NCBI GenBank assembly: GCA_902776455.1
Contig: CACYQI010000039.1
Location: forward strand, 1 to 46,257
Reading direction: 5' to 3'
DNA length: 46,257 bases
Source: an uncultured Bacteroidales bacterium
GTDB lineage: Bacteria > Bacteroidota > Bacteroidia > Bacteroidales > Bacteroidaceae
Shown: positions 23,926-43,012 of the stretch, piece after piece
How positions within the stretch are numbered: the first letter of the stretch is position 1
Layout of the letters: each line of letters starts with the position of its first letter
The notes under the pieces: generated by a model
Seen by the model: only the letters and a program-made list of their open reading frames with translations
What the model was told of the DNA's origin: nothing
Database searches by the model: none
Program-made: the position numbers and the translations under genes

Positions 23926-24023
23926 AGGCGAATTAAGCAATGGGTGCAGGCCAATTCCCTTTCACTTCTTTTTGTAGGTGGAAAAGCGGGTGGCTGCAGC
24001 TTTCAACTTCCGATTATCAACTC

Positions 24024-25463
24024 TTAACTCTCAATTACCTTGTTCTCTTCCTCAAGGGTATATGCGGAGCTTCCGTCGAAACAGTGGGTGCAGATGCGGT
24101 CCTTGGGCAGTCCGATGGCCTTGACGAGTGTCTCGAGCTTGGAGAAACGCAGCGAGTCGAGGTTCAGGCGGCGGGCTATCTCATCGACCATGCGCTTGTA
24201 CTCGGGGCTGTCGGTACGGGTGTAGGCTTCAAGGTTCTTGCTGTCGTCGCCCTCAAAGTCCTTGATGATGCGACGGGTGAGCAGTTCCAAGTCGCTCTTG
24301 CTTGCGCTGTAGTTGACGAAGGGACAGCTATAGACGAGCGGCGGACAACCGATGCGCATGTGTACCTCCTTGGCTCCCAACTCGTGGAGCACTTTCGTGT
24401 TGTCGCGAAGCTGTGTGCCACGAACGATGCTGTCGTCGCAGAAAAGCACCCGTTTGCCCTGGAGCACGTCCTTGTTGGCGATGAGTTTCATCTTGGCCAC
24501 GAGGTTGCGCATCTCCTGATTGCTGGGTGTGAAGGAACGCGGCCAAGTGGGTGTGTATTTACTGATGGCACGCATATAGGGGCATCCGTGACCCTGAGCA
24601 TAGCCCACGGCCATGCCTACGCCGCTATCGGGAATGCCGCAGGCACAATCCACTTCCGTCTTGTCCTCTTGTCCCATGACCCGTCCGCACTCGTTGCGCA
24701 CTATTTCGGTGTTGCGACCTTCGTAGCTGCTGGTAGGGAAACCATAGTAAACCCATAGGAACGAACAGATCTGCATGCCGGGATTAGGCTTTCTGAGTAC
24801 CGTCATCTGCTCGGCATCGATGCGGACTATCTCTCCGGGACCGAGGTAATGGGAGGTCTCGAAGCCGAGATTGGGGAAAGCCGACGTCTCGCTTGTCACG
24901 GCCAATGCGCCTTCCTTCTTGCCAACGACGATGGGCGTGCGGCCCCATGAATCGCGGGCTGCTATGATGCCGTCTTCGGTGAGCAGCAGCATGGAGCACG
25001 AGCCTTTGATGTGGAGGAACAACTTCTCTATGCCATCTACAAAGTCCTTGCCCTTTATGATGAGGAGAGCGATGAGTTCCGTCTGATTGATTTTGCCGCT
25101 GCTGAACTCGCTGAGATGTCCGCCTTCATCGAGCAACTGCTGTGCCAATTCCTCCTGATTCTTGATTTTTGCTACGGTGACGATGGCAAAGCGTCCCAGA
25201 TGGCTGTTCATGAGCATGGGCTGAGCATCGGTGTCGCTGATGACGCCTATGCCGGAGTTGCCCTGAAACTTGTCGAGTTCCGGCTCGAAGCGTGTCCGAA
25301 AGTATGTGCTTTCGAGGTTGTGGATGCTTCGCAGGAACTCGCCCGATTCGTTCAAAGTGGCTATGCCACCGCGTTTCGTGCCGAGATGCGACTGATAGTC
25401 TGTGCCGTAAAAGAGGTCGTTTGCACACTTTTGTTTCTGTACCGTACCGAAGAAACCGCCCAT
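24024..25463 (-). CDS. PurF-like amidophosphoribosyltransferase paralog lacking the N-terminal cysteine
   Basis: This 479-residue protein has an N-terminal Ntn-hydrolase (glutaminase) fold (GGFFGTVQKQKC, HLGTKRGGIAT, SDTDAQPMLMNSHLGRFAI) and a C-terminal phosphoribosyltransferase domain with the PRPP loop VLFCDDSIVRGTQ and the C-D-C-A-C-G-I-P-D-S-G region. Canonical PurF begins MCGI/V with Cys as nucleophile; here it is M-G-G-F-F-G, so glutamine hydrolysis by that residue is impossible. A second, canonical PurF is common in Bacteroidales. The start is set at MGGFFG (ATG 25461-25463); an upstream frame is encoded by ATTGAAAATTGAAAG repeats and is not credible. Confidence 0.85.
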   Translation of the reverse strand: MGGFFGTVQKQKCANDLFYGTDYQSHLGTKRGGIATLNESGEFLRSIHNLESTYFRTRFEPELDKFQGNSGIGVISDTDAQPMLMNSHLGRFAIVTVAKIKNQEELAQQLLDEGGHLSEFSSGKINQTELIALLIIKGKDFVDGIEKLFLHIKGSCSMLLLTEDGIIAARDSWGRTPIVVGKKEGALAVTSETSAFPNLGFETSHYLGPGEIVRIDAEQMTVLRKPNPGMQICSFLWVYYGFPTSSYEGRNTEIVRNECGRVMGQEDKTEVDCACGIPDSGVGMAVGYAQGHGCPYMRAISKYTPTWPRSFTPSNQEMRNLVAKMKLIANKDVLQGKRVLFCDDSIVRGTQLRDNTKVLHELGAKEVHMRIGCPPLVYSCPFVNYSASKSDLELLTRRIIKDFEGDDSKNLEAYTRTDSPEYKRMVDEIARRLNLDSLRFSKLETLVKAIGLPKDRICTHCFDGSSAYTLEEENKVIES

Positions 25464-25620
25464 ATTATGAAAATTGAAAATTGAAAACTGAAAGTTGAAA
25501 ATTGAAAGTTGAAGAGCCTCCTCTAAATCCAGATCCACTCTAACTCCCCCTAAGGGGGAGAACCCCTTCCCTTACGGGAGGGATGGGGAGGGTCTTTCTC
25601 CTTGCTCCTTTTTCCGCGTA
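25464..25620. repeat. Leader of the PurF-like gene: simple repeats and a GC-rich palindrome
   Basis: Bases 25468-25512 are imperfect GAAAATTGAAAATTGAAAACT units. Bases 25544-25592 contain CTCCCCCTAAGGGGGAG (a 17-bp hairpin) and CCCTTCCCTTACGGGAGGG, the same type of GC-rich palindrome that occurs near 31064-31200 and inside the ABC-F gene. Confidence 0.6.
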
Positions 25621-25628
25621 CAAAAGTA
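25621..25628 (-). promoter_or_regulatory. -7 box (TACTTTTG) for the PurF-like gene
   Basis: The minus strand reads TACTTTTG (TAnnTTTG) about 158 bases before the ATG. The long leader contains the repeats described for 25464-25620. Confidence 0.5.
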
Positions 25629-25728
25629 CTGCAAAACGTGCTTTTCTGCAACTTTTTTCTTTTCTTTTTCTGCAATGAGGCGCAAAAAAGTTTTCAAGCC
25701 CAACTTTCGGGCAGAAAAGCGGCGTATT

Positions 25729-25872
25729 TAGGGGTTAGGGGTTAGAGGTTAGGGGTTAGAGGATAGTGGGGGATACTGATTAGGGGTTAGGTGTTAGAGG
25801 TTAGGGGTTAGAGGATAGTTGGGGATGCTGATTAAGGGCAAAGGTATTCTCTAACCCCTAACCTCCTACCTC
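25729..25872. repeat. Two 52-bp tandem units built of GGGGTTAGAGG, plus an inverted tail
   Basis: Units at 25729-25780 and 25781-25832 differ at only a few positions. Each consists of TTAGGGG/TTAGAGG heptamers followed by ATAGTGGGGGATACTGAT. At 25849-25870 the complementary CTCTAACCCCTAACCTCC follows, so the block can fold into a hairpin. It runs up to and slightly into the 3' end of the M15 peptidase gene. No spacers separate the units, so it is not CRISPR. Confidence 0.75.
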
Positions 25873-26652
25873 CTACTTCTTACCCCTCTCCTTATTCTGC
25901 CCCGTTTCGATTAGTTCGAAGTGCTGGTAGTCCTTGCACGATTTCCAGTCGCCGCCCCACTCGAAGCCTGCTTCTATGAAGAGACGGTAGCAGAGGTCGC
26001 GGTGGTCTATCTTATAGGGGAACTCCTTCGAGCGCTCGAGGTATTTCTCTGCTGTTGCTGGCTGAACGAAGCGGGAGCCGTCGGCACGAATCTTGAAGTA
26101 CGGGTTGTAGAGGGTGTTGATGTCAACGGCCAGTCCGCGGGCATGCTTCGAGAGCTTGGCAGAGCCGGCTACGACGCGGTAGCAGAACGACGACGAATTG
26201 TTGTCGCGCATCTGAGCTTCGTCGTCGGCATCATAGACATCGGGCAGGAGCATGCGCTGAATGGGGTACTTGGCATCGAAAAGCTGGCGGAGAATGCGCA
26301 CCACGCGGTCGGCTATCTCGGCTCCCACTACCATCTCCCCGACGTGCATCTGCTGGTCGTAGTCCCAATGCAGAGCGCGAATGTGGCGAAGGTCGTTGCG
26401 CCCGATGTATGGGTTCTCCTTATAGGTCTTCCCTTGCATGCGCTGCCAAACCGCATCGGGAATCGGTTCTGCTGCGAAGCATTTCTCTATCCCGCCGAAA
26501 GCCGCTACAGCCTCTGCGCTGACGGTCTTGCCCACCTGCCACTCGATGAGCACGGTCGTATCGATGCCCTTCGGCTGTTCTTTGCTACTGCAAAACGCTG
26601 CCATGCTGAAGCTTAAGAGAATGGCAACGAGCAACAAGAGAGCTGACTTCAT
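25873..26652 (-). CDS. M15-family D-Ala-D-Ala carboxypeptidase-like protein
   Basis: The protein has 259 residues from MKSALLLLVAILLSFSMAAF (signal peptide). It carries the M15 zinc site: SKHARGLAVDIN (SxHxxGxAxD) and the downstream HFEL, with FRLF-like FIEAGFEWGGDW between. Enzymes of this type trim peptidoglycan peptides in the periplasm. The start chosen is five bases beyond the RNase R stop; an upstream in-frame start would overlap RNase R and mask the signal peptide. The last residues (NKERGKK) are encoded by the edge of the TTAGAGG repeat block, so the C-terminus may have been altered by it. Confidence 0.82.
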   Translation of the reverse strand: MKSALLLLVAILLSFSMAAFCSSKEQPKGIDTTVLIEWQVGKTVSAEAVAAFGGIEKCFAAEPIPDAVWQRMQGKTYKENPYIGRNDLRHIRALHWDYDQQMHVGEMVVGAEIADRVVRILRQLFDAKYPIQRMLLPDVYDADDEAQMRDNNSSSFCYRVVAGSAKLSKHARGLAVDINTLYNPYFKIRADGSRFVQPATAEKYLERSKEFPYKIDHRDLCYRLFIEAGFEWGGDWKSCKDYQHFELIETGQNKERGKK

Positions 26653-26656
26653 GAGG

Positions 26657-28930
26657 TCAATCGGGGCGGATGAGTTTGAAATCGAGCTGTTTGCGGTAGA
26701 GGTCGGCACGGCTGACCTGCACTTTGACGCTGTCGCCGAGGTTGTAGCAATGGTGATAGCGGCGGCCTTTCAGACAATAGTTCTTCTCGTCGAAGTCGTA
26801 GTAGTCGCCCTCCAAGTCGCGCAGAGGTATCATGCCTTCGCACTTGTTCTCGTCGATTTCCACATAAAGCCCGAACTCCGTGACGCCCGATATGGTGCCC
26901 TGGAAGGTTTCGCCCAAGTGGTCGCTCATGTACTCCACCTGCTTGTACTTGATGCTCGACCTTTCGGCCTGAGCAGCAGTCTGTTCCATGTCGCTACAAT
27001 GGTCGCAGTATTCCTCGTATTTCGTTTGGTTGACGTTACGGCCGCCTTCTGCATAGCGGGTGAGCAAGCGGTGAACCATGAGGTCGGGATAGCGACGGAT
27101 GGGCGAAGTGAAATGGGTGTAGTAGTCGAAGGCGAGACCGTAGTGGCCCACGTTGAACGTGCTGTACTTGGCCTTCATCATGGCCCGGAGCGTTATCATC
27201 TCGATGACATTCTGCTCGCGCTTGCCTTTGACGTCGCTCAAGAGGCGGTTCAGGTTGCGGCTGATGTCGGTCCTGCTGCCCGTGGTCTTGAGCTTGTGCC
27301 CGAACTTCGTGACGAAGTTAGCGAGGTTCAGAAGCTTTTCCGGGTCGGGATTCTCATGGATGCGATAGGGCAGAACTTTGGGCTTTTGGTTCTTAGGAAC
27401 CTTGCCGACGCTTTCGGCCACCGTTCTGTTTGCCAACAGCATGAACTCCTCGATGAGCTTGGTGGCGTCCGTCGCCACCTTGAAATAGACGCTGGTCGGG
27501 TGTCCGTCGTCGTCGATATTGAAGCGCACCTCGCATCTGTCGAAATCGACAGCCCCCGCAGCAAAACGCCTCTGACGCAACTGCTTGGCCATGCGGTTCA
27601 GGATAATCAAAGAGTTTTCCATTTCAGGGGCAAGGGGCAAGGGGCAGGGGGCAGGAGAATTGTTGGGGTAGGAGGTGCTCTCTTGCCCCTTGCCCCTTGC
27701 TCCTTGCTCCTTATAATCTTCCGGACTTGCCTCGCCGCGCTCCTCGAAAATCTCCTGCACCTCTTCGTATGAGAAGCGGCGGTCGCTGCGCGTTACCGTA
27801 TGGACGAGCTTCCAGTTCTTCACTTCCGCCTTCTCGTTCATCAGGAAGATGACGGAGAAGGTCAGCTTGTCCTCATCGGGACGAAGCGAGCAGATGTAGT
27901 TGCAAAGGCGCTCCGGCAGCATCGGTACCGTGCGGTCCACAAGATAGACGCTCGTGGCACGCTTGTAGGCTTCCTTATCTATAATAGAGCCTTCCTTGAC
28001 GTAATGGCTGACGTCGGCTATGTGGACACCCACCTCATATAATTTACTATTTGACGATTTACCGTTTGACGGTTTTATTTCTCGGAAGCTGAGTGCATCG
28101 TCGAAGTCCTTGGCGTCGGCAGGGTCGATGGTGAACGTCAGCACGTCGCGCATGTCGAGCCGTCGGGCCACCTCCTCTTCGGTGATGCCGGGCGTGAGCT
28201 TCTCGGCAGCTTTCTCCACGGCTGCGGGATAGACATAGGGCAGTCCGTATTCGGCCAGAATAGCATGCATCTCGGCATTGTTCTCGCCCGTCTTGCCCAG
28301 AATGTCAACCACCTTGCCTATCGGGTTCTTCGCTCTCTCGGGCCACTCCACGATGCGCACCACGGCTTTGTCGCCCGTCTTGCCCTTCTTGAGGTTCTCC
28401 TTCGGGATGAAGATGTCGTTGGCGAGCGTCCTGTCCTCGGTCAAGAGGTAGGCATAGCCCTTCTGCACCTGTAGGGTTCCCACGAAAGTCTTGTCACTGC
28501 GCTTGATGATTTCGGTGACGGAAGCCTCGCGGACGTGGTGCCTGCGGCGGGCGAAGAGCGTCACACGCACCGTGTCGCCGTCCATAGCGTGCTGGCTGTT
28601 GCGCTCGGCCACAAGGATGGGTTCGCCGCCATCTTCCGGCTCGAAGGTGTTCTTGCCATTTGCTTTGCGGTGGAACGTGCCGGTCATCACCTGCGAAGGC
28701 ATGTTCAGCGTGTAGTGTCCGCGCGGCTGCTCCTTGATGAAGTCATCCATGAGAAGCCCGTCGAGCACATCGACGAGAAGCATCTTGGCGCCGCTCGTGC
28801 GCAGATGAAGCTGTTTGCAGATACTCTTCAAAGGGAACGTCACGGACGGATTCTCCTGAAAAAAATCAATCACCACGCGTTCCAAATCGACTTTTCGCAG
28901 ACCTATGCTGCCCGTTTTCTTCTTTCCCAT
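26657..28930 (-). CDS. rnr: Ribonuclease R with two in-frame insertions
   Basis: This 757-residue 3'-5' exoribonuclease has N-terminal cold-shock/OB regions, the RNB catalytic domain with FTIDPADAKDFDDALS (about residue 275) and YICSLRPDEDKLTFSVIF, and a C-terminal S1 domain (GTISGVTEFGLYVEI). It degrades structured RNA and takes part in mRNA and tmRNA-linked turnover. Two segments have no counterpart in usual RNase R: KPSNGKSSNSKL at about 285-296, right after the catalytic aspartates, and about 29 residues at 406-435 (with GKGQE and APCPLPLAPE) from an 87-bp repeat element also found in typA. Both keep the frame. The promoter box is 17 bases upstream. Confidence 0.93.
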   Translation of the reverse strand: MGKKKTGSIGLRKVDLERVVIDFFQENPSVTFPLKSICKQLHLRTSGAKMLLVDVLDGLLMDDFIKEQPRGHYTLNMPSQVMTGTFHRKANGKNTFEPEDGGEPILVAERNSQHAMDGDTVRVTLFARRRHHVREASVTEIIKRSDKTFVGTLQVQKGYAYLLTEDRTLANDIFIPKENLKKGKTGDKAVVRIVEWPERAKNPIGKVVDILGKTGENNAEMHAILAEYGLPYVYPAAVEKAAEKLTPGITEEEVARRLDMRDVLTFTIDPADAKDFDDALSFREIKPSNGKSSNSKLYEVGVHIADVSHYVKEGSIIDKEAYKRATSVYLVDRTVPMLPERLCNYICSLRPDEDKLTFSVIFLMNEKAEVKNWKLVHTVTRSDRRFSYEEVQEIFEERGEASPEDYKEQGARGKGQESTSYPNNSPAPCPLPLAPEMENSLIILNRMAKQLRQRRFAAGAVDFDRCEVRFNIDDDGHPTSVYFKVATDATKLIEEFMLLANRTVAESVGKVPKNQKPKVLPYRIHENPDPEKLLNLANFVTKFGHKLKTTGSRTDISRNLNRLLSDVKGKREQNVIEMITLRAMMKAKYSTFNVGHYGLAFDYYTHFTSPIRRYPDLMVHRLLTRYAEGGRNVNQTKYEEYCDHCSDMEQTAAQAERSSIKYKQVEYMSDHLGETFQGTISGVTEFGLYVEIDENKCEGMIPLRDLEGDYYDFDEKNYCLKGRRYHHCYNLGDSVKVQVSRADLYRKQLDFKLIRPD
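27626..27712 (-). repeat. 87-bp in-frame repeat element in rnr
   Basis: The plus strand begins CAGGGGCAAGGGGCAAGGGG and ends CTTGCCCCTTGCCCCTTGCT..., so the ends are inverted repeats of each other around a unique core. By hand alignment 67 of 87 bases match 31823-31909 in typA with no gap. Both encode a peptide with GKGQE, TS and APCPxPLAPE at the same positions. Confidence 0.85.
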
Positions 28931-28946
28931 AGCTCAAATGTTTTCG

Positions 28947-28954
28947 CAAAGTTA
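28947..28954 (-). promoter_or_regulatory. -7 box (TAACTTTG) for rnr
   Basis: The minus strand reads TAACTTTG, 17 bases before the rnr ATG, giving a very short leader. Confidence 0.55.
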
Positions 28955-29303
28955 CGAAAAAAAACGTAAAGTAAAAAGCAAAATGCAAAAAAAATTATCG
29001 GATAATCCATGGTGGAGTGAAGAGTGAAGAATTTGCTACCGCGCTGTCGCAAGTGAAAAGTGAAAAGTGAAAAATCAAAGTTACCTGCCGCCCTGTAAAT
29101 AGTTAAATTACTAAGACCCCCCTCCATCTCCCCCGAGGGGGGAGAGTTTCACGGCAGGAAGCCTCCCCTCGGGGCAATTGCCCGTTAAAAGCGGAGCAAT
29201 TGGGGAGTGTAAGCGACGGAGGCCCGAAGGGTTTGGAAGGAGTCTGTAAATAATTAAATTGCTAAATAGTACATAAATAGTAAATGGTCAAATTGTAAAT
29301 TAT
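28955..29303. other. Gene-free spacer with a GC-rich block between direct repeats
   Basis: No gene is seen. CTGTAAATAGTTAAATTACTAA (22 bases at 29093-29114) recurs with three changes at 29244-29265. Between them is a GC-rich block with palindromic parts (CTCCCCCGAGGGGGGAG and CCCCTCGGGGCAATTGCCCG). The arrangement resembles a small non-autonomous insertion bounded by a target duplication, though the flanks may simply belong to a wider A/T repeat family (AAATAGTACATAAATAGTAAAT follows). Confidence 0.5.
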
Positions 29304-31154
29304 TTATCGTTCCCAAACGAAGCGGTAGGCGAAGCGGCGGTTGGGGGCGGTGTCGCCGGTGGTGGAGACGGAGATGATGTCGCCGGGATAGGTGGGATTG
29401 TCGGCCCACTTGAAAGACAAACTGAAACGCTTTCCCTTCTTACCAAGCAACTTGCGCGGAATGGCCACTTCGACACACTTCTCCCCTACTGCAACATCCC
29501 AGTCTTTCTCGAACTTCAGACTTACCAGTCTTAAATCTTGGATTCCGATGTCATATTTTCCGTCCTCGTCGGTGTCGATATAGAGCAGCATCCAATTCGG
29601 GTCTGTGCTGGGCGTAAGCGGCTCGGCTGTCTCGGCTGCAAAATAGATGTTCTTCTTATCGACTGCAACAAGGCAACGTGTTATATCGTTGCGGCCGGTA
29701 TTGTCGATGTAGTGCAGGTCGCCATAGCCGTTGTGGTCGCGATGAAGGACGTCGCCTCGGGTGTCGAGGAAACTGCTGTCGGGCTGCCACTCGTCGAGTT
29801 TGCCGTCGAGCACGATGTGCTGATAACCGCGATGCACGGGCATGGGCGGAACGCCTTTATAACGGCGGATGTTCTGAACCATCTGCATGTAGTAGTTGTC
29901 GGTGTATCCACCTTTCATGGGCGCGATGGTGCGGTTGAACTCGGCATTGTACTGGTCCACGAAGTAGAAGGGGTTGTCCTTGCGGCCGAGGAAGTCGATG
30001 TGCATGTCGGCCTGTCCGCTGGGGTCTTTGCCGTTGCGGTACTTGCCAGCCGTCCATTCGTTCCAGTCGTTGAGGTAGATGAAGTCGGGATCGACCTGCA
30101 GGGCCTCGTCCCAACGGTCCTGGAAGTATATGCCATACTGCGTCGGATTCTCCTTTTCCTCTTCAAGCCATGGCACAAAGGCCTTTGCTGGCATGTCCTT
30201 CCCGTCAAGCTCGGGCTCCAATGTCTCGCGTCGCCAACTCTTTCCGGTAATGCTGATGGGATGCTGGGCAGGCGTGACGGCCATCTCCTCCAAGCGACCT
30301 TGATGTTTGGCGCAAAGCTCTTCGGGCTTGAGGGCTGAGACCTTCTTGTCGTTCATCTCGTAGCCGAAGCTCCATTTGTCCTCGCCTCCCACATACGGTT
30401 CGCCTGCCCATTGATGGTAGCCCCACCACATGTTCCGCAAGGTAAAGAAGGCCTTGACCTCCGGGCTGTAGTCCTTGTCCTTTTGTCCTCCATTCGGATT
30501 GGCATCGACAGAAGGCGTGGCGTTGTAGAGGAGCAGCGGCTTGCCGTCCCAATAGAACCAGCAGTCCTCGTAGCGAGGCGTCTTGTAGAAGCGCTCGTAG
30601 AGGCTCTGAACCACATCGACCACGTTGCCGTTGAAGGCCCAGAAGCAGAACTTCGGCACCTTGTTTCCGAGGGCTTTCATCTCCTGCATGGTGGTGAAGA
30701 GCACTTCCCATTCGTCCCAATAGCAGACGGCATTCGTCACGTCCATGATGAGGACATCGACGCCCGCATCGGCCAGCATCGAGAGGTCGTGGAAGCAGAC
30801 GTATTTGTCTTGGCTGAGGAAGTAGCCGTATTCGGGTTCGCCCCAATGATAGGTGGCGTAGGGGAAATCGGGATTGCCTTTCGCTCGCATCGGATTCTCG
30901 TCGAGCAACTTCGTCACGTCGAAGGTATAGGGCTGTCCGTTATGAAGATTTTGTGTGTGCCAAGTGATGTAGAAGATGCCTACAGTCCGCTGTTTGTCTG
31001 TCTTAAGCGGGCACTCCTCGGCGGTGGGCAAGGTGCGACCCAAGCCGTCGGTGGCAACAAGAGAAGACCCCCCATCCCCCTTTAGGGGGAGTATTTCGCC
31101 GCAGCATATAGAGGAACTGACAGACAACAGGAACGCGAAAAGATACTTCTTCAT
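29304..31154 (-). CDS. Secreted GH71/GH99-like glycoside hydrolase with C-terminal CBM9-like domain
   Basis: This 616-residue protein has a signal peptide (MKKYLFAFLLSVSSSICC). The central region has GIFYITWH, PEYGYFLSQDKYVCFHDL, DVLIMDVTNA and FIYLNDWNEWTAGKY, which suit an (alpha/beta)8-barrel of the GH71/GH99 type acting on extracytoplasmic glycan. From about residue 440 a beta-rich C-terminal domain (IVLDGKLDEWQPDSSFLD, MLLYIDTDEDGKYDIG) resembles CBM9-like carbohydrate-binding modules. The catalytic acids are not assigned. Residues about 20-30 (EILPLKGDGGSS) come from a GC-rich palindromic repeat whose partner arm lies just upstream of the ATG. Family assignment is moderate. Confidence 0.6.
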   Translation of the reverse strand: MKKYLFAFLLSVSSSICCGEILPLKGDGGSSLVATDGLGRTLPTAEECPLKTDKQRTVGIFYITWHTQNLHNGQPYTFDVTKLLDENPMRAKGNPDFPYATYHWGEPEYGYFLSQDKYVCFHDLSMLADAGVDVLIMDVTNAVCYWDEWEVLFTTMQEMKALGNKVPKFCFWAFNGNVVDVVQSLYERFYKTPRYEDCWFYWDGKPLLLYNATPSVDANPNGGQKDKDYSPEVKAFFTLRNMWWGYHQWAGEPYVGGEDKWSFGYEMNDKKVSALKPEELCAKHQGRLEEMAVTPAQHPISITGKSWRRETLEPELDGKDMPAKAFVPWLEEEKENPTQYGIYFQDRWDEALQVDPDFIYLNDWNEWTAGKYRNGKDPSGQADMHIDFLGRKDNPFYFVDQYNAEFNRTIAPMKGGYTDNYYMQMVQNIRRYKGVPPMPVHRGYQHIVLDGKLDEWQPDSSFLDTRGDVLHRDHNGYGDLHYIDNTGRNDITRCLVAVDKKNIYFAAETAEPLTPSTDPNWMLLYIDTDEDGKYDIGIQDLRLVSLKFEKDWDVAVGEKCVEVAIPRKLLGKKGKRFSLSFKWADNPTYPGDIISVSTTGDTAPNRRFAYRFVWER

Positions 31155-31200
31155 AGTTGTAACATAAAAGAACTCCCCCTAAAGGGGGCAGGGGGGTCTT
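31064..31200. repeat. Inverted repeat arms bracketing a start codon
   Basis: Arm 31064-31092 and the reverse complement of arm 31172-31200 agree at 27 of 29 positions (CCCCCTTTAGGGGG core). The ATG at 31152-31154 and the signal-peptide codons lie in the 79-base loop. The left arm is coding; the right arm is in the leader and touches the typA stop codon. Confidence 0.75.
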
Positions 31201-33077
31201 TACTCCTTATTCGCCCTCTTCCTCTCCAGATGGTCGAGGATAACCTTTCGCATACGCATGCTCTTTGGCGTCACCTCCACGTATTCGTCGGCTTTGATGT
31301 ACTCCAAGGCTTCTTCGAGCGAGAAGATAGTGGCAGGGATGATGTGTGCCTTTTCGTCGGTTCCGCTGGCGCGAACATTGGTGAGCTGCTTGGCCTTGCA
31401 GACGTTGATGACGATGTCGTTCTCGTGGACGTGTTCGCCTACCACTTGGCCTGCATAGACTTGGTCCTGCGGCTCGATGAAGAAGCGTCCGCGGTCTTGC
31501 AAGTGGTCGATGGCGTATGCGTAGGCATTGCCTGTTTCGAGCGCGATGAGTGAGCCGTTGACGCGGCGGTTGATGTCGCCCTTATAAGGCTGGTATTCCT
31601 TGAAGCGATGGGCTATGATGGCTTCGCCCTGACTGGCCGTCAACATGTTGGTGCGAAGGCCGATGATGCCGCGAGAAGGGATGAGGAACTCGATGTTGAC
31701 GCGTTCGCCCTGACTCTCCATGCTCGTCATCTCGCCTTTGCGGCGCGTCACCATGTCAATCATCTTCGACGCGAACTCTTCCGGCACGTTGATGGTCATT
31801 TCCTCGATAGGCTCGTACCTTTCAGGGGCGAGGGGCGAGGGGCAAGGGGCAAGAGATTTGCTGGAGCCACTGGTATCCTCTTGCCCCTTACCACTTGCTC
31901 CTGGCCCCCATTTATATATGACCTGCGGCTGACCGACCTGCAGTTCGTAGCCCTCTCGACGCATGGTCTCAATGAGCACGGACAGATGCAACACTCCCCT
32001 ACCCGACACTATCCAGCGGTCGGTATAGCCTTCGGGCACTTCTACGCGAAGGGCGAGGTTCTTCTCCAACTCGCGCTCGAGGCGTTCACCTATGTGGCGG
32101 CTGGTGCAGTACTTGCCTTCCTTGCCGAAGAAGGGCGAGTCGTTGATGGTGAAGAGCATGGACATCGTAGGCTCGTCGATGCTGATGGGAGGCAACGGTT
32201 CGGGGTTCTCGAAGTCGCAAAGCGTGTCGCCTATCTCGAAGCGTTCCAAGCCGACAATCGCACAGATGTCGCCCGAACCCACTTCCTGCGTCTTCTGTCG
32301 GCCCATACCCGTGAAGGTGTGGAGCTCCTTTATCTTCGTCTTTTCCATCTGTCCGCTACGATGGGCAATGGTGATGTTCATGCCCTCCTTCAACGTGCCA
32401 CGATGCACGCGGCCCACCGCTATGCGACCTGTATAGTTGCTGTAGTCGAGACTCGTGATGAGCATCTGCGGCGAGCCTTCGAGTACCTCGGGAGCGGGGA
32501 TGTACTTGAGGATGCAGTCGAGCAGATAGGTGATGTCTGTTGTCGGCTTCTGCCAGTCCTCGGACATCCAGCCCTGCTTTGCCGAGCCGTAGATAACGGG
32601 GAAGTCGAGCTGATCCTCCGTTGCATCGAGGTCGCACATGAGGTCGAACACCATCTCATACACCTCTTCGGGGCGGCAGTTGGGCTTATCGACTTTGTTG
32701 ATGACGACGACAGGCTTCAAGCCAATCTGCAAGGCTTTCTGCAGCACGAAGCGCGTCTGCGGCATCGGTCCTTCGAAGGCATCGACGAGCAGCAGGCAGC
32801 CGTCGGCCATGTTCAGGACGCGCTCCACCTCGCCGCCGAAGTCCGAGTGGCCCGGCGTGTCGATGATGTTTATCTTCGTGTCCTTGTAGTTGATGCTGAC
32901 GTTCTTCGAGAGGATGGTGATGCCTCGCTCGCGCTCCAGCTCGTTGTTGTCGAGCATGAGTTCGCCCGTCTGCTGGTTCTCGCGGAAGAGATTACCTGCC
33001 AAGAGCATTTTATCTACGAGAGTTGTCTTGCCGTGGTCAACGTGTGCTATGATGGCTATGTTCCTGATGCTTTGCAT
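31200..33077 (-). CDS. typA: Translational GTPase TypA/BipA with an in-frame insertion
   Basis: The protein has 625 residues from [19 protein letters not shown]-domain motifs are AHVDHGKTT (G1), ERGITI (G2), [14 protein letters not shown] (G3) and NKVDKP (G4); domains EF-G III/V and the TypA C-terminal domain follow ([26 protein letters not shown]). It binds the ribosome and supports assembly and stress adaptation. An insert of about 29 residues ([18 protein letters not shown]) lies between [10 protein letters not shown] and [18 protein letters not shown], where homologs are continuous; it corresponds to the 87-bp element. The start chosen is MQSIRN; the longer frame has an unconserved extension lying over the promoter. 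Confidence 0.93.
31823..31909 (-). repeat. 87-bp in-frame repeat element in typA
   Basis: This is the partner of 27626-27712 in rnr, with equal length, same orientation relative to the gene and same reading frame. The ends (CAGGGGCGAGGGGCGAGGGG and CTCTTGCCCCTTACCACTTG) are imperfect inverted repeats. Confidence 0.85.
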
Positions 33078-33125
33078 ATCGATGTATGAAATGTCTGTAT
33101 ATGTGGGGTTTTGGAAATTCGCGTG

Positions 33126-33133
33126 CAAAGATA
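33126..33133 (-). promoter_or_regulatory. -7 box (TATCTTTG) for typA
   Basis: The minus strand reads TATCTTTG about 49 bases before the chosen typA ATG. Confidence 0.5.
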
Positions 33134-33207
33134 GCTAAATTTCCCGAATTAACAGTCCGAACCCATGAAGAAAATGTTTCAAAAGACACATTTCCGCTGC
33201 CCGTGCT

Positions 33208-33687
33208 TCAATAATTCTTCTTAAACTGGCGGTCGATAGCACGTCGGTCTTCTTTTTCCTTGAGCGTCTCGCGCTTGTCGTATTCCTTCTTGCCTCGTGC
33301 TATGTAGATGTCGAGTTTGGCTCGTCCGTTCTCGTCGATGAAGAGAAGTGTAGGCACGATGCTGAAGCCAGGCGACTTGACCGTCTGCTGCATCTTGCGT
33401 ATCTCCCTTCGGTTGAGCAGAAGTTTGCGGTCGCGCCGCTCTACGTGGTTGTTGTAGGAGCCTTGCTCGTAGTGCGCTATGTACATGTTCTTCACCCAAA
33501 CCTCGCCGCCTATGATGTAGCAATAGGTATCGACGAGGCTTGCCTTGCCCTTCCGGATGCTCTTTATCTCCGTGCCGGTCAGAACGATGCCTGCCGTGTA
33601 CTGGTCCATGAGCAAGTATTCGAACTCAGCACGCTTGTTCTTGATGTTTATCTTTGCCCCTTTGTTGGGAATGAGTGTCTTTGACAT
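33208..33687 (-). CDS. smpB: SsrA-binding protein SmpB
   Basis: This 159-residue basic protein has [35 protein letters not shown] at the start (beta-barrel), then [12 protein letters not shown]-type and [17 protein letters not shown] towards the C-terminal tail. It binds tmRNA and brings it to stalled ribosomes for trans-translation. Length and motif order are normal. It may be co-transcribed with the DMP19 gene upstream; the 44-base gap is filled by ATTTACGATTTGACGATTT-type repeats. No own promoter box is seen. The ssrA RNA itself is not in this window. Confidence 0.95.
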
Positions 33688-33731
33688 CCCTGATTTATTT
33701 ACGATTTGACGATTTACGATTTATGATTTAT

Positions 33732-34250
33732 TTACGATTTAGCAATTTTGCTTTGGGGTCTTATGAACTCAACTAAGTGGTCATCGACATAGTGTGCGAT
33801 GGTGTCTGTCACCTCTTCTTCCATCTCGATGAAGGCGTCGTCGAGGTCGTCGAACTCGGGGTACTTCTCGAAGAGCGCCATGAACTCCTCGTCGGTACAG
33901 TCGGCCGTAAGCTCATCGCCATACCGCTCGAAGAGCTTGCGCCCCTTATAGACGAGCTTGCTGAACTCGTGAGCGCCCCACAGCCGCATCGCCTTGGCAA
34001 AAGGATTGAGGAAGATGAAAGGGCCGTAGCCGTTGTGTATGAGCTGGATGAAGCCTCCGTCCATCACCTCTTCCCTCAGGATGAAATAGGCCAGCAAAGT
34101 CGTCTGCTCGCCACTAAGAAGCGGCAGAGTCTCGCCATTCACCTCGCCTCCGACAGCTTCGAGGATTGCATCGTGAACTGCCGAAAGGAAGGCATCCGTC
34201 CCCTTCGCTGCAGCCTCCAGGAGCTTTGATTCTTGTATGATTACGTCCAT
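33732..34250 (-). CDS. DMP19-family protein
   Basis: This 172-residue acidic protein carries the DMP19 core FILREEVMDGGFIQLIHNGYGPFIF then NPFAKAMRLWG (about residues 56-95). The family was named from a Neisseria DNA-mimic protein; in Bacteroidetes the function is not established. The C-terminal third is very acidic (EFDDLDDAFIEMEEEV), in keeping with a DNA-mimic surface. It is cytoplasmic with no signal. A -7 box lies 20 bases upstream, and smpB follows in the same direction. Confidence 0.75.
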   Translation of the reverse strand: MDVIIQESKLLEAAAKGTDAFLSAVHDAILEAVGGEVNGETLPLLSGEQTTLLAYFILREEVMDGGFIQLIHNGYGPFIFLNPFAKAMRLWGAHEFSKLVYKGRKLFERYGDELTADCTDEEFMALFEKYPEFDDLDDAFIEMEEEVTDTIAHYVDDHLVEFIRPQSKIAKS

Positions 34251-34270
34251 CTTCTTCTTGTTTTGTTTTG

Positions 34271-34278
34271 CAAAGTTA
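34271..34278 (-). promoter_or_regulatory. -7 box (TAACTTTG) for the DMP19-smpB pair
   Basis: The minus strand reads TAACTTTG, 20 bases before the DMP19 ATG. It is divergent from the MNT-HEPN promoter at 34342. Confidence 0.55.
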
Positions 34279-34341
34279 CGAAAAATAATTCATTCGACGA
34301 ACATTTCCCGCCGTTTCCTTTGCCGGAATAGGATAATTTAC

Positions 34342-34349
34342 TAACTTTG
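34342..34349 (+). promoter_or_regulatory. Promoter of the MNT-HEPN pair (TTTG-N19-TAACTTTG)
   Basis: TAACTTTG at 34342-34349 is preceded after 19 bases by TTTG (34319-34322), an exact Bacteroidetes -33/-7 arrangement. The ATG follows 20 bases later. Confidence 0.65.
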
Positions 34350-34369
34350 CAGGTGCTTAGCGATATATT

Positions 34370-34690
34370 ATGACTGCAAAGGAAGAAGAAGTAATCCGGA
34401 AAATCAAAGAGACCAGCCATAAGGTTGTACCGCCAGACGGACAGGTTTGGCTTTATGGTTCCCGTGCCCGCGGCAATGCCCATGAAGGTTCGGACTGGGA
34501 CATATTGATTCTTTTGAATAAGCCCAAACTGGAAGCAAGCGACTATGATGTAGCCTATCCCTTCCGTGAACTTGGCTGGGACATAGGCGAAGAAATCAAT
34601 CCTTCACTTTACACCCAGAAGCAATGGAACGAATGGACATTTCTTCCCTTTCATAAAAATGTAGAACAAGACAAGTTTATACTGCAATGA
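34370..34690 (+). CDS. MNT-type nucleotidyltransferase antitoxin
   Basis: This 106-residue protein has the minimal nucleotidyltransferase motif GSRARGNAHEGSDWDILI, an exact GSx10DxD, at about residues 30-47. In characterised MNT-HEPN pairs the enzyme AMPylates the HEPN partner and neutralises it. The gene overlaps the HEPN gene by four bases (ATGA), the usual toxin-antitoxin coupling. It is cytoplasmic. Whether AMPylation is the mechanism here is inferred from the family. Confidence 0.87.
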   Translation: MTAKEEEVIRKIKETSHKVVPPDGQVWLYGSRARGNAHEGSDWDILILLNKPKLEASDYDVAYPFRELGWDIGEEINPSLYTQKQWNEWTFLPFHKNVEQDKFILQ

Positions 34691-37620: not shown

Positions 37621-37687
37621 AGCCTCACCCCCTCCTCCTCTCCGAGGAGAGGGGAGCTACAGATGCCGTTATTATGAATTGAGAATT
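37621..37687. repeat. GC-rich hairpin followed by ATTATGAATT repeats
   Basis: CTCCTCTCCGAGGAGAGGGGAG (37633-37654) folds into a hairpin just beyond the nhaD stop and could terminate its transcript. It is followed by TTATGAATTGAGAATTATGAATTATGAATTG units that run into the start of the helicase gene and supply its ATG and the NYEL codons. Confidence 0.55.
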
Positions 37688-39082
37688 ATGAATTATGAAT
37701 TGAGCAAGCTCGGCATTTCAGCCCTCACCGCCATGCAGCAGGACATGCTCGCCACGGCGCGAAAGGGCGCGTCGGTAGTACTTCTCAGCCCTACCGGCTC
37801 CGGCAAGACGCTTGCCTACCTGTTGCCCTTGCTCCAGAAACTCGATGCCAAGAGCGACGCCCTGCAGGCCCTCATCATCGTCCCCTCGCGCGAACTGGCG
37901 ATGCAGACAGCCGACGTGGCCCGAAGGCTTTGCTCCGAGCTACGCGTCTGCGCTTGCTATGGCGGACGCCCTGCTATGGAGGAGCACCAGCAGATGCGCA
38001 GTCTCAAGCCTCACCTCGTGGCTGCGACACCCGGCCGACTGCTCGACCACCTGCAGAAAGACAACCTGCCGACGCAAGACGTCAGCACGCTCGTCATCGA
38101 TGAGTTCGACAAGTCGCTCGAACTGGGCTTCCGCGAACAGATGCAAAGCATCCTCTCCCTCCTGCCACGCCTCAGCCAACGCATCCTCCTCTCTGCCACC
38201 GATGCCGAAGAAATCCCGGCTTTCGTGGGAACAAAAGACTATGTCCGCCTCGACTTCCTCGACCATGAGCGCGACGACCGCATCAGTCTCCGCATCGTCA
38301 AGTCGCCCGAAAAGGACAAACTTCAGACGCTCTTTCGCCTCCTCTGCAAGCTGGGAACGCAGAAGAGCCTCGTCTTCGTGGGCTACAGGGAGAGCGTAGA
38401 ACGCGTGGCCGGCTTCCTTGAGAAACAAGGCATCATGGCCGACGGCTTCCACGGAGGCATGGAGCAACGCGACCGCGAAAGGGCGCTCTACCGCTTCATG
38501 AACGGCTCGTCGAACGTTCTTGTCAGCACCGACCTCGCTTCCCGCGGGCTTGACATCGAAGCAGTCGATAACATCATCCACTACCACCTGCCCCTCAACG
38601 AGGAAGTCTGCACGCATCGCAACGGCCGCACGGCAAGGTGGGACATGCAAGGCTCAGCCTATTTCATCCTCGGCCCCGAGGAACAACTGAATCCTTCCCT
38701 CTTCCCCTCAGCCCTCTCCCCCTACCCCTCCTCCAGGGAGGAAGGGAGGAAAGGAAGCTGCCAACTTATCGAAGAAAGTCTCTCTCCTCGGAGGGAGAAT
38801 GGAGAGAGGCTGGAGGATTCACGAGAGACCACTCCGCCTTTGCCGCTTTGGGTTACATTATATATAGGTAAAGGCAAGAAGGACAAGCTCAGCCGCGGCG
38901 ACATCGTGGGCTTTCTCACGAAGCAAGGCGGCCTCGAAGCCAGCCAAATCGGCCGCATCGACGTGCTGCCCCATTGGTCGTACGTCGCCGTCGAGCGTGC
39001 CGCAGCACGCGATTTACTCGCTCGCATCAAAGGCCTCAAGATTAAGGGGCAAAAGACAATCTATGCCCTCGCTGGGCGATGA
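37688..39082 (+). CDS. DbpA-like DEAD-box RNA helicase with an in-frame insertion
   Basis: This 464-residue protein carries SPTGSGKTLAYLLPLL (Walker A), PSRELAMQ, ATPGRLLDH, VIDEFDKSLELGF (motif II, DEFD rather than DEAD), LSATD (SAT), STDLASRGLDIEAV and HRNGRTAR, then a C-terminal DbpA RNA-binding domain (LYIGKGKKDKLSRGDIVGFL, IGRIDVLPHWSYVAV). It probably works in ribosome assembly. Between the helicase core and the DbpA domain is a Pro/Ser/Arg/Glu-rich insert (PSALSPYPSSREEGRKG, SLSPRRENGERLE) from a palindromic repeat at 38707-38812. The ATG is provided by an ATTATGAATT repeat. Confidence 0.88.
   Translation: MNYELSKLGISALTAMQQDMLATARKGASVVLLSPTGSGKTLAYLLPLLQKLDAKSDALQALIIVPSRELAMQTADVARRLCSELRVCACYGGRPAMEEHQQMRSLKPHLVAATPGRLLDHLQKDNLPTQDVSTLVIDEFDKSLELGFREQMQSILSLLPRLSQRILLSATDAEEIPAFVGTKDYVRLDFLDHERDDRISLRIVKSPEKDKLQTLFRLLCKLGTQKSLVFVGYRESVERVAGFLEKQGIMADGFHGGMEQRDRERALYRFMNGSSNVLVSTDLASRGLDIEAVDNIIHYHLPLNEEVCTHRNGRTARWDMQGSAYFILGPEEQLNPSLFPSALSPYPSSREEGRKGSCQLIEESLSPRRENGERLEDSRETTPPLPLWVTLYIGKGKKDKLSRGDIVGFLTKQGGLEASQIGRIDVLPHWSYVAVERAAARDLLARIKGLKIKGQKTIYALAGR
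38707..38812 (+). repeat. Palindromic repeat of about 106 bp inside the DbpA-like gene
   Basis: CAGCCCTCTCCCCCTACCCC at the left end and the reverse complement of the right end (CCAGCCTCTCTCCATTCTCC) form an imperfect inverted repeat. Inner hairpins CCTCCAGGGAGG and CCTCGGAGG are also present. The ends resemble those of the element in the ABC-F gene (AGCCCCCTCCCC). Frame is kept and about 35 residues are encoded. Confidence 0.7.
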
Positions 39083-41095: not shown

Positions 41096-43012
41096 ATGAA
41101 TGCCGTCTCAATTGACAACCTATGCGTAGAGTTCAGCGCGAAGCCGCTCTTCAATAACATCAGCTACGTCATCAACGACCACGAACGCATTGCCCTCGTC
41201 GGCAAGAACGGGGCCGGAAAGAGCACGATGCTGAAGGTCATCGCCGGTTTGCAACAGCCCACAAGCGGAACTGTCAGCGTGCCAAAGGACGCCACCATCG
41301 CCTACCTGCCGCAAGTGATGGTGCTCACCGACGAACGCACCGTTAGGGAGGAGGCTGAACGAGCCTTCGAGAACATCACAGAGATGGAGGAGGAACTCGA
41401 CCGCCTCAATCGTCAGCTTGCTGAGCGAACCGACTACGAGAGCGAGGCTTACATGGCTCTCGTGGAACGTTTCTCCCACCTCAACGAGCACTTCCAGATG
41501 ATGGGAGGCACGCACTATCAGGCCGAGCTGGAACGCACCTTGCAGGGACTGGGTTTCCGCCGCGAAGACCTCGACCGCCCGACGAGCGAGTTCAGCGGCG
41601 GATGGCGCATGCGCATCGAGCTGGCGAAGCTTCTGCTGCAGCACCCCGATGTCCTGCTGCTCGACGAACCCACGAACCACCTCGACATAGAGAGCATACA
41701 ATGGCTCGAGAACTTCCTCACTACCAGCGCCAATGCCGTAGTGCTCGTCAGCCACGACCGTGCGTTTATCAACAACGTGACGAACCGAACCATCGAAATC
41801 AGCTGCGGAAAGATATACGACTACAAGGTGAAGTACGACGAGTACGTCACCCTTCATGCCGAGCGTCGCGAGCAACAACTGCGCGCCCTCGAGAACCAAC
41901 AGAAAGAGATAGCTGATGCCAAAGCCTTCATCGAACGCTTCCGCTATCAGGCCACGAAGGCCATTCAGGTGCAGCAGAAGATAAGGCAGCTCGAGAAGAT
42001 CGTGCCGATTGAGGTCGATGAGGTCGATAACAGCGCCCTTCGCCTCAAGTTCACGTGCTCGATGCGCAGCGGCGACTTCCCCGTCATCTGCGACGAGGTG
42101 GGCAAGTCGTACGGCGACCATTGCGTCTTCCGCGGCATCAACCTGACCATCAGGCGAGGCGAGAAGGTGGCTTTCGTCGGGCGAAACGGCGAAGGCAAGA
42201 CAACGCTCGTGAAGTGCATCATGGGCGAGATTCCCTTCGACGGCATGCTCAAGGTCGGGCACAACGTGCAGATAGGCTACTTCGCACAGAATCAGGCACA
42301 ACTGCTCGACGGCGAACTGACCGTCTTCGACACCATCGACCGCGTGGCAAAGGGCGACATACGCACCAAGATACGCGACATCCTCGGCGCCTTCATGTTT
42401 GGCGGAGAGGCCAGCGAGAAGAAGGTGAAGTTCCTCTCCGGCGGCGAACGAACCCGTCTGGCCATGATTAAGCTCCTGCTCGAACCCGTCAACTGCCTCA
42501 TCCTCGACGAGCCGACGAACCATCTCGACATGCGCTCGAAGGACGTGCTGAAGGCTGCCATCCGCGACTTCGACGGCACAGTCATCGTGGTGAGCCACGA
42601 CCGCGAGTTCCTCGACGGCCTTGTGACGAAGGTCTATGAGTTCGGCGGAGGCAAAGTCAGGGAGCACCTGGGAGGCATTTACGACTACTTAGCCACCAGC
42701 CCCCTCCCCGCTCTCCCTCTGGGGGAGTGCCTGACAAACAGCGAAACAACGGGAATGAAGCCCTCCCCCAAAGGGGGAGCGGGGAGGGGGCTTTACGCCG
42801 AACAGAAAGCCCTTGCACGCGAACAGAAGCGAAAGGAGAAGGCTCTGCAAGAGGCCGAGGAAAAGGTGACGCAACTCGAAGCTGCCATCCGCATCCTCGA
42901 AGACCAGATGTCAACGCCCGAAGGCTGTCAGGACGTCGCTCTCTACGAGAAGCACGGCCGCCTGAAAGCACAGCTCAAACAAGCCGAAGAGGAATGGGAA
43001 GCCCTGATTTAA
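41096..43012 (+). CDS. ABC-F family ATPase with an in-frame palindromic insertion
   Basis: This 638-residue protein has two ABC domains and no membrane segment. ABC1: LVGKNGAGKSTML, EFSGGWRMRIELAKLLL, LLLLDEPTNHLD. ABC2: FVGRNGEGKTTLV, LSGGERTRLAMIKLLL, LILDEPTNHLD. The linker (about residues 240-310) is the arginine- and glutamine-rich helical P-site motif. ABC-F proteins act on the ribosome. Between ABC2 and the C-terminal coiled coil (EQKRKEKALQEAEEKVTQLEAAIRIL), about residues 535-566 are encoded by a palindromic element (42698-42792), giving Pro/Gly-rich residues (PLPALPLGE, PSPKGGAGRG). The start is set at MNAVSIDNL. Confidence 0.9.
   Translation: MNAVSIDNLCVEFSAKPLFNNISYVINDHERIALVGKNGAGKSTMLKVIAGLQQPTSGTVSVPKDATIAYLPQVMVLTDERTVREEAERAFENITEMEEELDRLNRQLAERTDYESEAYMALVERFSHLNEHFQMMGGTHYQAELERTLQGLGFRREDLDRPTSEFSGGWRMRIELAKLLLQHPDVLLLDEPTNHLDIESIQWLENFLTTSANAVVLVSHDRAFINNVTNRTIEISCGKIYDYKVKYDEYVTLHAERREQQLRALENQQKEIADAKAFIERFRYQATKAIQVQQKIRQLEKIVPIEVDEVDNSALRLKFTCSMRSGDFPVICDEVGKSYGDHCVFRGINLTIRRGEKVAFVGRNGEGKTTLVKCIMGEIPFDGMLKVGHNVQIGYFAQNQAQLLDGELTVFDTIDRVAKGDIRTKIRDILGAFMFGGEASEKKVKFLSGGERTRLAMIKLLLEPVNCLILDEPTNHLDMRSKDVLKAAIRDFDGTVIVVSHDREFLDGLVTKVYEFGGGKVREHLGGIYDYLATSPLPALPLGECLTNSETTGMKPSPKGGAGRGLYAEQKALAREQKRKEKALQEAEEKVTQLEAAIRILEDQMSTPEGCQDVALYEKHGRLKAQLKQAEEEWEALI
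42698..42792 (+). repeat. 95-bp palindromic element inside the ABC-F gene
   Basis: Terminal arms AGCCCCCTCCCCGCT (42698-42712) and AGCGGGGAGGGGGCT (42778-42792) are perfect 15-bp inverted repeats. Inner arms CTCCCTCTGGGGGAG and CTCCCCCAAAGGGGGAG lie next to them. The element is read through in frame. Confidence 0.88.

Follow-up and report, generated by a model that had tools for sequence, protein, structure and literature searches.

How do two conserved genes, encoding RNase R (rnr) and TypA (typA), come to share a palindromic segment of 87 bp through which both reading frames stay open? The genes lie in a 46,257-nt contig of an uncultured Bacteroidales bacterium (CACYQI010000039.1, assembly GCA_902776455.1); this whole stretch is called the window below. 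We regard it as rather probable that the segment belongs to a dispersed palindrome of about 87 bp that is copied to new places in one uncultured gut genus of the Bacteroidaceae/Prevotellaceae clade, and that a copy within a gene survives by virtue of its frame, a tolerant loop and the hydrophilicity of the encoded peptide.

The two copies and their host genes are arranged in the window as follows.

26657..28930, minus strand: rnr (RNase R) host gene, open reading frame (ORF) of 757 aa, open through the element
27625..27711, minus strand: rnr copy of the element, peptide of about 31 residues on the coding strand, frame +0, 67/87 identical to the typA copy
27626..27653: heptamer arm of the rnr copy, four units of AGGGGCA (Tandem Repeats Finder)
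27654..27681: spacer of the rnr copy (hairpin loop region), between the two heptamer arrays (fold)
27682..27712: complementary heptamer arm of the rnr copy, 4.4 units of CTTGCCC (Tandem Repeats Finder and inverted repeat)
31200..33128, minus strand: typA/bipA host gene, ORF of 642 aa, open through the element
31823..31909, minus strand: typA copy of the element, peptide of about 31 residues on the coding strand (covariance model, 84.0 bits)
31825..31855: left arm of the typA copy (inverted repeat)
31878..31908: right arm of the typA copy (inverted repeat)

The copies are equal in length and align without a gap. Their 67 identities are far beyond chance, because the typA copy has a mean ungapped identity of 21.8 (sd 4.3) with the 87-mers of the window. 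A preliminary description of this DNA had given the same identity but started the rnr copy at 27626; the interval 27626-27712, taken as written, matches at 33 of 87 positions. It was right that the copies share orientation and frame, both lying in minus-strand ORFs, and right about the imperfect inverted repeats, except that these extend well beyond its termini; the bulk of the element is formed by arms that are 31-33 nt long and 84-88% complementary. Folded as DNA hairpins, the rnr and typA copies gave z scores of -6.0 and -2.4 against dinucleotide shuffles. The covariance model of the family (see below) matched the rnr copy at 27625-27713 with 102.7 bits, and the window from 24000 to 34500 had no Rfam match at the gathering score. 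The host genes are securely identified by matches of their products to solved RNase R (E 3e-127) and BipA (E 2e-182); the typA ORF is listed from a TTG, but translation probably begins at a later codon, ahead of QSIRNIAII. The pair is thus confirmed as real, related repeat copies.

The element consists of about four AAGGRGC heptamers, a spacer of about 30 nt and complementary heptamers, with a core of about 87 bp; each array has four G-tracts, and in some units an A replaces a G. The preliminary description had expected many more copies in the genome. A covariance model built from 30 copies located 54 distinct places on both strands of the 3.39-Mb draft genome (107 rows), possibly at least 54, as the best 150 of 1835 candidates were scored; the initial single-sequence search had scored the best 40 of 107 candidates. 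The model was then applied to 61 genomes, with the best 72 candidates per genome scored under stricter filters than in the own-genome scan, and identified 7 carriers among the 37 congeneric genomes and none among the 24 from other families (E up to 1e-8). The occurrence of the family is narrow and patchy, and most relatives lack it. Searches of open-licence literature listed no such element for Bacteroidota or Prevotella. Viral contigs contained no exact match to a 28-base pattern of the element, which is a weak test of a viral vehicle.

Classification was made for 51 of the 54 places (C9:38307, C43:2449 and C37:13154 being left out). At 31 of them the copy lies inside a gene whose ORF is open through the element, which adds about 30 amino acids with the reading frame uninterrupted; the other 20 are intergenic or at gene edges. 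Matches in Pfam or PDB were obtained for 29 of the 31 host ORFs, the remaining two being L003 (aligned in four of the seven relatives searched) and L060. The hosts include many conserved genes, namely those of RNase R, TypA, RecG, shikimate dehydrogenase, EPSP synthase, ArgRS, an EngB-like GTPase, RsmF, PrmA, a polyA/CCA polymerase, a biotin/lipoate ligase and others, the short names being partly deduced from the Pfam matches.

Departures from the common form were also seen. Each of the loci L303, L306, L308, L312 and L313 has at its centre a variant of about 129 nt, which keeps the heptamer arms but has a different, longer spacer, and four of these five lie inside or beside a further palindrome (GAAGCTTTGCTTCC...GGAAGTGCAAACTTCC). 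At the centre of L018, in the EngB-like GTPase gene, the right arm is present in about three tandem copies and the frame is kept. A GATase gene of another genome (L255, G027:C63:62891-63801) holds a greatly expanded version, a 291-nt insert in frame, made of a repeated unit of about 14 residues (EGHGARSKEQENTL). The window also carries G+C-rich palindromes of the CCCCCTTTAGGGGG type at 31064-31200 and 42698-42792, and the heptamer elements of L009, L013, L014, L015 and L030, among others, are flanked by halves of CCCCCTTTAGGGGG-like palindromes, which gives the appearance of nesting.

The consensus has no stop codon in any of the six frames, nor do 12 of the 30 aligned copies; such openness was found in 0.2% of shuffles and in 1.9-2.9% of random-heptamer hairpins. 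A stop-free sequence that is readable in all six frames would make many landings tolerable. As 7 and 3 are coprime, an arm yields the same cyclic peptide in every frame, and it is the spacer peptide that varies. The 31 coding copies are nonetheless strongly biased: frames +0, +2, -0, +1, -1 and -2 are used 17, 8, 4, 1, 1 and 0 times (the frame being uncertain for L026, L302, L304, L307, L310 and L317), and the grand averages of hydropathy of the encoded peptides, in the same order, are -1.20, -1.00, -0.41, 0.01, 0.42 and 0.64. Frame use thus declines with hydrophobicity (Spearman -0.99), with an excess of +0 (P 1.4e-6). The single shared frame described for the rnr and typA copies holds for that pair and not for the family; with five of six frames used, one obligatory frame is rejected. 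The coding copies are random in neither frame nor strand; the preliminary description had named copies random in frame and orientation, most of them disrupting genes, as a result that would refute it, and this result did not arise. The simplest reading is landing in many frames followed by selection for hydrophilic peptides.

What the element displaces can be seen by comparison with relatives; for RNase R, most of the named ones belong to Bacteroidaceae/Prevotellaceae from rumen and gut. In TypA, all 29 fetched relatives of the genus lack the element and have a short native turn, YKEIDG...EP, in its place; in the window the element replaces about seven codons of that turn, a net gain of 75 nt. 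At the RNase R site, near relatives have a loop that varies and measures about 20 residues; in Bacteroides (L136) it is shorter. Loop positions rest on sequence alignment, by which the site measures 29 residues in TypA of the window vs 4 in solved BipA, and 37 in RNase R vs 9 in the solved structure. One relative, L061 (= G020), has the same rnr copy, and most of the other aligned relatives have an unrelated loop. A homologous native loop, which the preliminary description had named as the finding that would speak against an insertion, is accordingly rejected for both proteins, L061 being the one exception for rnr. Its picture of a clean in-frame insertion into otherwise continuous proteins needs correction in one respect: the frame is kept and the element is missing from most orthologs, but a native turn or variable loop occupies the site, and its codons have been replaced.

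The joined flanks of 16 further coding copies were searched in seven genomes of the genus, giving 105 aligned gene-by-genome sites, of which 85 have fewer than 60 nt between the conserved flanks. At direct sites the native loop codons are missing from the own-genome gene. No target duplication was seen by eye at TypA or at the direct sites, the comparison being with orthologs and not with the true pre-insertion sequence. At the left junction the element overlaps the native sequence by 2.43 nt vs 1.11 expected, a value reached in none of 5000 shuffles.

The remaining 20 sites have 60 nt or more between the flanks, in frame; seven of these inserts are element-like and 13 are not. Eight of the 13 fold at z -2.4 or lower, for example those of AroE in G013 (z -11.4), the ligase in G027 (z -9.7) and RsmF in G036 (z -8.5, with GAGTGAA-type heptamers). 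In addition, the RNase R loops of L062, L064, L068, L074 and L090 hold other, repeat-like inserts. In some sister species, therefore, unrelated hairpin families occupy the same loops.

A second, small insert is present elsewhere in rnr of the window, at 28042-28075; it encodes KPSNGKSSNSK and consists of AAATCGTCAAATAGTAAATT-like repeats. The corresponding position is filled by a similar insert, KSSNGKSSNGK, in L061, L062, L064, L068 and L090, with shorter forms in L070, L077 and L079 and KKG in others. Tandem heptamers are also common beyond the element. Among exact tandem runs with periods from 4 to 15 in the DNA of L061-L094, which was not selected for the element, 18 have a period of 7 and 6 a period of 14, and no other period has more than 3. 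Within the window, arrays of the unrelated units TGAAAAT, TTAGGGG, AAGTGAA and ATTATGA occur at 25468-25513, 25728-25884, 29051-29073 and 37671-37701, so that period 7 recurs among unrelated sequences.

Some sister species share a copy at the same site, and 22 such pairs were found. We analysed ten coding pairs, comparing the own genome with G005, G013, G020 or G027. Of the others, five do not include the own genome, two lie upstream of ruvB, and five (L010, L012, L025, L301 and L307) were set aside because we took them to be independent or their alignments to have too many gaps. Synonymous differences per site amounted to 14/216 in the element (arms 12/144, spacer 2/72), and in the flanks to 17/72 for codons 1-5, 21/67 for codons 6-10, 62/139 for codons 11-20 and 524/1268 beyond codon 20; with sites treated as independent, Fisher tests gave P 1e-27 for the element and P 0.003 for flank codons 1-5. 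The element fell in the lowest 4% of sliding windows of the same gene in eight of the ten pairs. An AroE pair between the own genome and G027, outside the ten, had a synonymous divergence (dS) of 0.21 vs 0.98. In two sets of control pairs without a shared element (29 and 99), codons 1-5 were not conserved, with proportions of synonymous differences of 0.66 and 0.76. Plain vertical descent would make insert and gene equally diverged, which points to exchange of the copies later than the species split, or else to constraint on their nucleotides. Selection on the stem is disfavoured as the cause, as the spacer is the part most conserved at synonymous sites, with 0.049 nonsynonymous vs 0.028 synonymous changes per site. 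Closeness to the consensus is lower for direct coding copies (0.86) than for copies that are non-coding or nested (0.92-0.93); any exchange would thus have involved versions that had diverged beforehand.

We propose that microhomology guides each new copy into its site as a short patch, which takes the place of native sequence. The patch could come from template switching, or from a short single-stranded hairpin fragment that anneals at the replication fork. It would remove the native bases between its two junctions and make no target duplication, the encoded peptide would be a neutral passenger, and same-site copies of sister species would reflect recent exchanges of the element together with some tens of flanking bases. 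Such a patch fits because native bases are lost and microhomology is one-sided, and it is the best, though unproven, mechanism. The term "short-patch double illegitimate recombination" may apply to such events; a search of open-licence papers for that phrase gave no result.

Several observations weigh against this explanation. Microhomology at the right junction is at chance (1.07 vs 0.87 nt, P 0.21), the relatives compared at the junctions do not represent the true pre-insertion sequence, and the native loops could instead have been trimmed after insertion. That coding copies are in frame is partly a matter of construction, because a gene-breaking copy would count as non-coding, and flanks were checked for some of the 20 non-coding copies only. 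Five of the 13 other long inserts do not fold clearly better than shuffles. The two PfkB pairs are ordinary, since windows no more diverged than the element number 172 of 337 in one and 142 of 347 in the other, and the closeness of 0.86 fits old constrained copies as well as it fits the exchange of old versions. At the ABC and biotin-ligase sites the G013 copies are divergent, with an insert dS of about 1.1, so some same-site copies look independent. The distribution of one transposase family points the same way.

That family bears on a possible, if rather unlikely, alternative, in which the palindrome is a non-autonomous mobile element of the miniature inverted-repeat transposable element (MITE) or repetitive extragenic palindromic (REP) type, moved in trans by a transposase such as Y1/RAYT (REP-associated tyrosine transposase), the loop being trimmed later by selection. 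Discrete size and ends, dispersal and patchy occurrence would all suit a transposase, and so would the greater frequency of Y1_Tnp in carriers: strong matches are present in 3 of 7 carriers (G013, G027 and G035) vs 2 of 34 other genomes (P 0.03), four of which, G061-G064, were not screened for the element. However, in these drafts, and for the one transposase family searched, our own genome, the densest in copies, does not go beyond weak Y1 matches (best E 2e-5), and three carriers, G005, G020 and G036, show none. The missing native codons and lack of a visible duplication at the inspected sites, and a consensus of 30 copies without a GTAG or CGTC tag, also speak against it.

It is unlikely that the copies are selected for a function, whether as a hairpin in DNA or mRNA or as a linker peptide of some use, with nucleotide constraint keeping synonymous divergence low. 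This would account for the low divergence of same-site copies, for the strong hairpins, and for the stability between species of direct coding copies, although these stand furthest from the consensus. But the hairpin loop, not the stem, has the fewest synonymous changes, the reduced divergence extends into flank codons 1-5, the host genes have no evident common function, and most relatives do without copies. An artefact of assembling or binning repeat-rich metagenome-assembled genomes is very improbable: the compared genomes are drafts and repeats are a known cause of misassembly (PMC5771137), but copies at a given site, with the spacer particular to that site, are found again in separate genomes, G020 and G027 come from different data sets, and the frame is open through 31 copies.

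Returning to the replacement patch, a wider and more tentative idea, which we hold to be doubtful as yet, is that loops of housekeeping proteins act as exchangeable cassettes. Unrelated hairpin families would replace the native loop and one another, and would pass between species into the same loop, together with some tens of flanking bases, by transposase-free, hairpin-driven short-patch recombination.

The family provides a separate case of protein-coding palindromes, in gut bacteria, and about 40 genomes of one genus make it possible to count where and when copies entered, which frames they use and how fast they turn over. Nature has in effect tried out which protein loops can accommodate 30 foreign residues, and the family offers a testable route from a non-coding repeat to protein. 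For annotation, peptides like GQGARSKGQEN...PAPCPLPLAP in these genomes should be read as repeat-derived.

Among known repeats, REP sequences are reported to be short multicopy palindromes, some of them inside ORFs (PMC3733652); those of the GTAG/CGTC superfamilies measure 20-40 bp, against about 87 bp here. MITEs resemble the element in having terminal inverted repeats (here arms of 31-33 nt) and differ in the target site duplication, which was not seen here in comparison with orthologs. The G-rich heptameric repeats of Xanthomonas and Nostoc are reported to be units of seven with four G-tracts and a preference for four units, direct in orientation and under-represented in coding regions (PMC4692102). 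The tandem heptamers and G-tracts of our arms, with about four AAGGRGC units each, are alike; the inverted pairing and the 31 coding copies among 51 are not. In nematomorph mitochondria, long inverted repeats are reported within functional coding sequence (PMC6649704). There both arms encode conserved protein, whereas our palindrome is an extra segment dispersed over many sites.

The best-known palindromes that encode protein are those of Rickettsia. The Rickettsia palindromic elements (RPEs), with the Wolbachia palindromic elements (WPEs), are reported to be dispersed palindromes of about 100-150 bp, many of them in ORFs with the frame kept, and different RPE families are recorded at one locus in different species (PMC3767692, PMC10969869). 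The family described here is likewise a dispersed hairpin, at 54 places, with most classified copies in ORFs and a slightly shorter core, and it too shares loci with different families in different species. It differs in belonging to another phylum, in its heptamer-built arms and six-frame-open consensus, in replacing native loop codons, in using several frames, and in same-site copies less diverged than their genes. The preliminary description had seen in the rnr and typA copies the behaviour of RPEs, entering genes and adding a tolerated peptide, and the 31 open coding copies support that interpretation. The family works like RPEs and is called here an RPE-like family of Bacteroidota rather than an RPE, likened by behaviour and not by sequence homology.

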